Assembly: GCF_029258315.1 (NCBI RefSeq)
Contig: NZ_JARHZE010000065.1
Coordinates: 1-34,306, forward strand
Direction of reading: 5' to 3'
Source: Fusobacterium sp.
GTDB lineage: Bacteria; Fusobacteriota; Fusobacteriia; Fusobacteriales; Fusobacteriaceae
DNA length: 34,306 nt
Shown: positions 26,077-28,116 of the stretch, piece by piece
How the letters are laid out: each line of letters opens with the position of its first letter
Numbering within the stretch: the stretch's first letter is position 1
Notes under the pieces: generated by a model
What the model saw: only the letters and a program-made list of their open reading frames with translations
What the model was told of the DNA's origin: nothing
Database searches by the model: none
Translations under genes and position numbers: made by a program

Positions 26077-27864
26077 ATGATCGGTGGAAATACCTTGGGA
26101 ATCAAGGATTATTTATTAAAAGAATTAGAAAGTTTATTAGAAGAAAAAATAGAAAAGGGAAAATTTTTAAGAGAAGATATATTTTTAAAAATAGTAGAGA
26201 TAAGCTACAATATAAATAAAGAGATAAGTGTAGCGATTGATAGAAATGGAAAAATTTTAGATATAAACATTGGGGATAGTGGAAGTGCAACTCTTCCAAA
26301 GGTGGAGTACAAGGATAGAAAACTTTGTGGAGTGAGAATTATCCATACCCATCCAAGTGGAAGTGCTAGACTTTCTGATGTAGATATTTCAGCTTTGATA
26401 GAACTTAAACTAGATGCTATGTCAGCCATAGGGATAAATAAAGATGGAAGTATCAATGGAATATCAATGGGATTTTGTAAGGTTCAAGACAATAATATTC
26501 TTCATGAAGAGTATCTTTCAAAAAATCTTATGACAGTTGAAAATTATAATTTTTTAGCAAAGATTCAAGAGATTGAAAAAGAATTAAGAGCTAGAATAAT
26601 AGATGAAGATTATAAAGAGTATGCTATACTTGTTGGAAGAGAGAGCCAAGAAAGTTTAGAAGAGTTAAAAGAACTTGCAAGTGCTTGTGACATAGAAACA
26701 GTTCATATAATGTTACAAAAAGGAAGTAAGATTGATAAAAGTTTCTATATAGGTAGTGGAAAGGTAGTGGAACTTGCAAGAGCTAAACAGATAAGAGCAG
26801 CTAATCTGATAATTTTTGATGAGGAGCTTTCAGGTATTCAAATTAGAAACTTAGAGGATAATATAGGATGTAGAGTAATAGATAGAACATCTCTGATTTT
26901 AGAAATATTTGCAAGAAGAGCTAGAACAAAAGAGGCAAAGATTCAAGTAAAATTAGCTGAATTAAAATATAGAGGAACAAGACTTATTGGATTTGGAACT
27001 GAACTTTCAAGAATAGGTGGAGGACTTGGAAATAGAGGACTTGGAGAAACTAAACTTGAACTTGATAGAAGAAAAATAAAAGACGAGATTTCAAATTTAA
27101 GAGATGAACTTGAAAAAATAAAAAAAATAAGAGGAACTCAAAGAGAGAGAAGAGAGAAATCAAATATGGGAAAAATCTCTTTGGTTGGGTATACTAATGT
27201 TGGAAAATCAACTCTTAGAAACTTAATAGTTAAAAATTATTGTAAAGATAATAGCCCAAAGACAGAAGATGTTTTTGCAGAAAATATGCTTTTTGCTACT
27301 TTGGATACCACTGTTAGAGTTGTAGAATTAAAAGATAAAAAAGAGGTAGCAGTAATAGATACAGTTGGATTTATTAGAAAATTACCTCATGATTTAGTCG
27401 AGGCTTTTAAATCTACATTGGAAGAGGTTATTTTCTCAGATGTTTTAATTCATGTGGTAGATGCTTCCAGTGAAAATTTATTTAAAGAGATATCTGTTGT
27501 AGAAGGAGTATTAAAAGAACTTGGTTGTGAAAATAAGCCAACAATTTTAGCTCTTAATAAGACAGATAAAATCTCAGAAGAAAAACTAGAAGAGGTAAAA
27601 GAACAGCTTTTAAATTATGAAATAGTAGAGATAAGTGCTAGGGAAAATATAAATATAGATTTATTACTTGATAAAGCTGTGGATAAGTTACCAGAACAGC
27701 TAAAAAAGGCTGAATATTTAATTCCTTATTCAGATACAGCTATGTCAGCTTATATTCATAGTAATTCTTCAGTATTATCAGAAGAGTACTTAGGTGAGGG
27801 TATAAAATTAGTGGCTATGGTAGATGATAAGGTTTATAACAAATGTAAAAAATATATGAAATAA
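26077..27864 (+). CDS. hflX: Ribosome-associated GTPase HflX with N-terminal JAMM/RadC-like domain
   Basis: HflX rescues and splits stalled ribosomes. Residues 180-360 form the HflX N-terminal domain with the glycine-rich RIGGGLGNRGLGETKLELDRR segment and a coiled linker. The G domain has G1 GYTNVGKST (371-379), G3 DTVGF (428-432) and G4 NKTD (494-497). An extra domain of about 170 residues precedes it and contains HTHPSGSARLSDVD: His90, His92, Ser100 and Asp103 in the exact HxH-x7-S-x2-D spacing of JAMM/RadC metal sites. Glu49 (KEISVAIDRNG) is placed as the JAMM glutamate. Typical HflX is about 370-430 residues; this is 595. AAGGAGG at 26066-26072 fixes the ATG. A role of the extra domain in ribosome rescue is unknown. 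Confidence 0.92.
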   Translation: MIGGNTLGIKDYLLKELESLLEEKIEKGKFLREDIFLKIVEISYNINKEISVAIDRNGKILDINIGDSGSATLPKVEYKDRKLCGVRIIHTHPSGSARLSDVDISALIELKLDAMSAIGINKDGSINGISMGFCKVQDNNILHEEYLSKNLMTVENYNFLAKIQEIEKELRARIIDEDYKEYAILVGRESQESLEELKELASACDIETVHIMLQKGSKIDKSFYIGSGKVVELARAKQIRAANLIIFDEELSGIQIRNLEDNIGCRVIDRTSLILEIFARRARTKEAKIQVKLAELKYRGTRLIGFGTELSRIGGGLGNRGLGETKLELDRRKIKDEISNLRDELEKIKKIRGTQRERREKSNMGKISLVGYTNVGKSTLRNLIVKNYCKDNSPKTEDVFAENMLFATLDTTVRVVELKDKKEVAVIDTVGFIRKLPHDLVEAFKSTLEEVIFSDVLIHVVDASSENLFKEISVVEGVLKELGCENKPTILALNKTDKISEEKLEEVKEQLLNYEIVEISARENINIDLLLDKAVDKLPEQLKKAEYLIPYSDTAMSAYIHSNSSVLSEEYLGEGIKLVAMVDDKVYNKCKKYMK

Positions 27865-27950: not shown

Positions 27951-28073
27951 ATGAAAAGATTTTATGAGAAGCCTGTAAATATATTTAATTTAAAAAATCT
28001 TTTTTCTTTTTTTATTTTTTCAAAAACCATTTATAATTATTTTAATATATCAGGAATAAGAATTGCAGTATAA
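27951..28073 (+). CDS. Putative pyr leader peptide, 40 residues (PyrL-like in role)
   Basis: An ATG-started reading frame in the pyr leader. AAGGGGGT (27931-27938) is a Shine-Dalgarno match with a rather long spacing (about 12 bases). Codons 17-24 (LFSFFIFS) are encoded by an extreme T-rich tract, 28000-28020, with 19 T of 21. The UAA stop at 28071-28073 lies in the loop of the intrinsic terminator. The sequence is not similar to E. coli PyrL, but the arrangement is that of the pyrBI leader, where UTP-dependent pausing lets the ribosome catch up and block the terminator. The peptide itself need have no function. Confidence 0.6.
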   Translation: MKRFYEKPVNIFNLKNLFSFFIFSKTIYNYFNISGIRIAV

Positions 28074-28096
28074 TTGCAATTTTTATTCCTTTTTTT
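28052..28096 (+). terminator. pyr attenuator terminator upstream of pyrB
   Basis: AGGAATAAGAATTGCA (28052-28067) pairs with TGCAATTTTTATTCCT (28075-28090), 16 bp with one G-U, loop of seven bases, then T6. It lies between the promoter and pyrB, so it must be bypassed for operon expression. The left arm encodes the last codons of the leader reading frame, so a ribosome on these codons would prevent the hairpin. Confidence 0.85.
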
Positions 28097-28116
28097 ATGA
28101 AGGAAGGGATAGGTAT

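Follow-up and report, generated by a model that had tools for sequence, protein, structure and literature searches.

The window analysed here, a stretch of 34,306 nucleotides from Fusobacterium sp., carries on its forward strand an open reading frame of 595 aa, whose ATG is preceded just upstream by the SD sequence AAGGAGGT. Its product is an HflX GTPase with the ND1, helical and GTPase architecture of this family, and all curated cut-offs are exceeded: TIGR03156 (432 bits, cut-off 216.75, residues 189-534), PF13167 (104 bits against 25.4, starting at residue 192) and PF16360 (94.8 against 29.5). The GTPase motifs GYTNVGKS, DTVGF and NKTD are found in the part of the core that corresponds to PF01926, and the nearest solved structures, the ribosome-bound HflX proteins 8a57, 5ady and 8vio, align over residues 188-593. 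Since ND1 (PF13167) begins at residue 192, about 175-185 N-terminal residues are additional. The features of the gene are the following:

26077..27864, + strand: hflX with a fused N-terminal JAB domain, 595 aa, matching TIGR03156 (GTP_HflX)
26077..26601, + strand: JAB/MPN+ (JAMM) domain, residues 1-175, from profiles, AlphaFold2, Foldseek and residue invariance
26221..26223, + strand: codon of Glu49, which opens strand 49-55 and is predicted to act as the catalytic base, invariant in 62/62 sequences
26344..26352, + strand: codons of His90-Thr91-His92, with the predicted zinc ligands, at the end of strand 86-92, invariant in 62/62
26374..26385, + strand: codons of Ser100 to Asp103, predicted to supply the oxyanion Ser and a third zinc ligand where helix 101-109 begins, invariant in 62/62
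26602..26649, + strand: short linker between JAB and HflX ND1, residues 176-191, with pLDDT <50 at 176-188 in the domain model
26650..27861, + strand: HflX core, comprising ND1 (PF13167), helical domain (PF16360), GTPase (PF01926) and C-terminal region

Further downstream, at 28052-28097 (+) and just before pyrB, lies what resembles a terminator or attenuator in the leader of the pyr operon, a strong hairpin of 18 bp (-20.6 kcal/mol, z -6.9) with a run of T behind it; no Rfam match was obtained within the 34,306-nt window.

The first-pass annotation of this DNA had proposed, for 26077-26620, an HflX fused to a JAMM/RadC-like metalloprotease domain that ordinary HflX lacks. The frame and the residues on which it relied (Glu49, His90-x-His92, Ser100, Asp103 and the HTHPSG motif) read exactly as described, its range matches that of the domain, and canonical HflX indeed starts only at about residue 188. 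The segment in question reads INKE49ISVAIDR...RIIH90TH92PSGSARLS100DVD103ISAL, so that the E plus H-x-H-x7-S-x2-D catalytic constellation of JAMM enzymes is present with its spacing.

With the single sequence, no Pfam family reaches its gathering cut-off in the N-terminal domain, and none scores better than Prok-JAB (PF14464, 15.7 bits, E=0.014, gathering score 25 bits) and RadC (PF04002, 14.0 bits, E=0.049, gathering score 22.1 bits). Prok-JAB is also the commonest family among 43 relatives (20/43, best E=2e-4, weak but in register), followed by RadC (11/43). In a profile-profile comparison, as the annotation had suggested, hhalign aligned the domain to the JAB of RadC-like DinG (P=7e-6), all five site residues being in register and Glu49 facing the E of GNEVFF, and to RadC (P=5e-5), and none of 200 column permutations used as a control reached the score for either. 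A search of the PDB with the single sequence gave chance matches only. In the corresponding profile search, the AMSH/AMSH-LP deubiquitinases were among the weak matches with HTHP..LS..D in register (E ~0.4, alone not significant), and the top two matches were chloroplast ribosomal protein S19.

An AlphaFold2 model of the domain built on 43 sequences is compact (pLDDT 84.8, pTM 0.79) and places helices at 11-20, 33-46, 101-109 and 159-177 and strands at 49-55, 59-66, 86-92, 114-120, 126-137 and 140-148. In this model, E49 opens strand 49-55, HxH closes strand 86-92, and S100 and D103 lie at the start of helix 101-109, which are the elements expected for these residues. In the PDB, MPN subunits of the COP9 signalosome took all 14 top ranks of the Foldseek search, CSN5 accounting for 12 (E=4e-4 to 2e-2, probability <=0.99), and a viral structure library returned proteins named MPN family, metalloprotease, RadC-like JAB or JAB domain (best E=2e-5). 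The predicted topology and these matches are those of a JAB fold, though TM-scores are low (0.3-0.43). In a full-length model, JAB appears as a separate domain that is poorly placed relative to the core (pTM 0.56).

The sub-threshold Pfam scores and low TM-scores are what could be held in favour of HTHPSG..S..D being a chance motif in a domain unrelated to JAB. This explanation is highly improbable in view of the hhalign scores against permutation controls, the structure matches mostly to JAB/MPN proteins and the strict invariance of the site described below. Profile matches, the invariant ligands, the predicted fold and the structure searches together support the JAMM/JAB part of the original proposal, and the N-terminal domain is almost certainly a JAB/MPN+ (JAMM) domain. 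The RadC-like part reduces to distant kinship: membership of RadC itself was rejected on the score (14 bits, below 22.1), the motif HTHP[S/N]G in place of HNHPSG, and a different N-terminus.

The residues of the site do not vary freely among homologues, which is the behaviour that would have spoken against the assignment. E49, H90, T91, H92, S100 and D103 are identical in 22/22 fusobacterial homologues and in 43/43 sequences from Fusobacteria and Clostridia. They are likewise identical in 62/62 after addition of 19 of the 20 most divergent clostridial members, these 19 having been gathered by the HxH..D pattern, which the 20th (L198, genome G243) failed. L198 is a fused HflX in which YFYP replaces HTHP and the site is degenerate; it is the single exception, a natural dead variant, and thus catalysis was dispensable at least once. 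The JAB domain is under purifying selection: two close pairs gave dN/dS of 0.06-0.12 for it and of 0.05-0.06 for the HflX core (L006 being left out for an indel frame offset); these values are rough because dS is ~0.8-0.95.

In JAMM enzymes, the invariant Glu and Ser serve catalysis and not metal binding. Their invariance here argues for an active hydrolase, and we consider it likely, from the conservation pattern, that the JAB domain of HflX is one. The domain could instead be a metal-bound, non-hydrolytic module that tunes HflX, serving as a zinc sensor or as a wedge on rRNA or the ribosome. A structural role is common among JAB/MPN proteins, L198 retains the domain without HxH, and the N-terminal extension of mycobacterial HflX acts without catalysis by disordering H68-H71, according to a 2025 review (PMC12493154). 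But a scaffold should lose E49 and S100 repeatedly, and these two residues are as invariant as the metal ligands, with one loss seen; a non-hydrolytic role is therefore unlikely.

Fusions of this kind, whose distribution the annotation had asked to examine across Fusobacteria and Clostridia, occur in both groups. In Fusobacteriota, the domain is present in 45/98 genomes and HflX in 63/98; every one of the 45 JAB domains lies next to HflX, and the remaining HflX genes are short (frames of 356-450 aa). Of 245 sampled clostridial genomes, 179 carry HflX and 73 the JAB domain. The fused form thus accounts for ~40% of HflX-bearing sampled Clostridia (73 vs 179) and for most HflX-bearing Fusobacteriaceae, and many relatives carry a short HflX. 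Both parts are present in 20/20 of the most divergent clostridial members, and a scan of genome contigs revealed more fused genes across Clostridium, Oceanirhabdus and Hathewaya. No free-standing copy was seen among the fusobacterial and clostridial ORFs read, the domain being always joined to HflX. A 596-aa frame (L224) is a read-through extension without the JAB domain.

Two paralogous JAB-HflX genes each were noted in Clostridium manihotivorum and Oceanirhabdus (pairs L120/L087, L126/L086 and L129/L100). In a Leptotrichiaceae MAG (L072, genome G067), the frame stops at ~370 aa within the HflX core, owing to a truncation or an assembly error.

In a tree of the HflX core, the group of the source genome and other fused Fusobacteriaceae fall within the fused Clostridiaceae (SH-aLRT 99-100), and the short fusobacterial HflX proteins form a distant clade. 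This placement makes a transfer probable: a Clostridium-like donor probably passed the fused gene to Fusobacteriaceae, where, as the tree suggests, it replaced the native fusobacterial hflX. At least eight changes between fused and short forms are needed on the tree, a count that includes one unreliable short call at a contig start (L208), indicating that the domain was gained or lost several times in Clostridia. A mobile origin was sought and rejected: phages and viral contigs gave no match, and the two matches in a plasmid collection are Fusobacterium records, one of them chromosome-sized.

HflX proteins bind and split stalled 70S ribosomes, and the bonds that JAMM enzymes are known to cleave are peptide bonds, isopeptide bonds and related amides. 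From the fusion we infer a role of the JAB domain in ribosome rescue. Joined to the N-terminus through a short linker, the JAB/MPN+ (JAMM) metallohydrolase would be brought by HflX, as a predicted zinc peptidase or isopeptidase, to the 50S intersubunit face of stalled ribosomes. At that site, a ribosome-bound protein, or a nascent chain exposed by stalling or splitting, would be cleaved at a peptide or amide bond; we favour such a substrate because of the bonds JAMM enzymes are known to cut. The domain would lie near the site of the mycobacterial HflX extension (uL16, H38, H69-H71; PMC12493154). Taken as a whole, an active zinc (iso)peptidase delivered by HflX to the 50S interface of stalled ribosomes is the explanation to which we lean, and for the narrower designation of JAB-HflX as a ribosome-associated peptidase the balance is about even. 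We propose only tentatively that in many Clostridia and Fusobacteria HflX splits ribosomes and, coupled to this, cleaves a ribosomal protein, a bound factor or a stalled nascent chain in a zinc-dependent manner.

A further explanation is that JAB acts on a nucleic acid or a nucleotide adduct, within a wider set of JAB domains carried by nucleic-acid motors (RadC, RadC-like DinG and HflX). RadC and a RadC-like DinG helicase, each with HNHPSG, are both present in the source genome and are the best-aligning relatives of those tested; in addition, RNA helicase activity has been reported for HflX (Dey et al. 2018, as cited in PMC8632094). However, JAMM chemistry is known for amide bonds, and RadC-like DinG is structurally similar to metalloproteases only, not to nucleases (PMC11981726), so that we regard this as rather improbable and retain cleavage of a peptide bond at the ribosome as the preferred reading.

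Candidate substrates and partners of JAB-HflX were also considered. N-terminal processing of bL27 was rejected, since Prp, the protease dedicated to that step, occurs in 47/47 near-complete Fusobacteriaceae, fused or not, and leaves no evident need for it. A link to RqcH and Ala tails was likewise set aside: 61/61 Fusobacteriaceae have RqcH, so its presence is uninformative. The analysis revealed no ubiquitin-like partner, and no conserved partner gene is shared between the Clostridium and Fusobacteria neighbourhoods. As judged from names assigned by reading the sequences, the upstream genes are phosphoribosyltransferase-like and large penicillin-binding-protein-like in Clostridium and a symporter in Fusobacteria, and an operon partner was dismissed.

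JAB-HflX is a real, conserved domain fusion with, by its sequence, an intact catalytic site, and it is widespread but apparently unremarked: database annotation names these proteins HflX only, and no report linking HflX with JAMM, JAB, MPN or metalloprotease was found in the open-licence full-text literature. Work on HflX has concerned ribosome splitting and antibiotic resistance, and neither family models nor annotation distinguish JAB-HflX from an ordinary HflX. If active, the domain would add a proteolytic step to bacterial ribosome rescue, of which no prior report was found, and would offer a route to function for the poorly understood JAB domains of the RadC/DinG type.

Compared with canonical HflX (TIGR03156; E. 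coli HflX, Listeria HflX/HflXr), JAB-HflX has the same ND1, helical domain, GTPase and C-terminal region, continuous over residues 188-593, whereas the canonical protein begins at about residue 188 and is without the JAB domain. Mycobacterial HflX also has an extra segment at the same end, which touches uL16 and H38 and extends as far as the junction of H69-H71 in the 50S subunit; it is of 39-58 residues and not an enzyme domain, and the review passages on it note N-terminal extensions in HflX of several Clostridium spp., describing a JAMM site for neither (PMC12493154). The JAMM/MPN+ deubiquitinases CSN5 and AMSH-LP, together with the small archaeal and bacterial JAMMs, share H-x-H-x7-S-x2-D and the upstream Glu and provided Foldseek and profile matches, but they act on ubiquitin-like conjugates, none of which was identified for JAB-HflX. 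RadC (PF04002) shares the JAB fold, a site of the HxHPSG..PS..D type and weak profile similarity, and differs in HNHPSG, its own N-terminal region ahead of JAB and the lack of an attached GTPase. An 863-aa frame of the source genome (L234, G000:C51), whose JAB domain reads HNHPSG..SD, represents RadC-like DinG, a family of no known function for which a 2025 paper described the same E, H, H, D site and a resemblance to JAMM proteases by DALI (PMC11981726). RadC-like DinG is the best profile match among those tested and likewise carries JAB, with its E, HxH, S and D, at the N-terminus of a nucleic-acid motor, but its partner is an SF2 DNA helicase, its motif is HNHPSG and it is without the N-terminal 40-residue helical segment of JAB-HflX. 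JAB-HflX is thus not a member of that family, its JAB being carried by HflX and not by an SF2 helicase and the DinG-JAB being a separate gene in the same genome; it parallels RadC-like DinG as a JAB domain fronting a nucleic-acid-handling NTPase.
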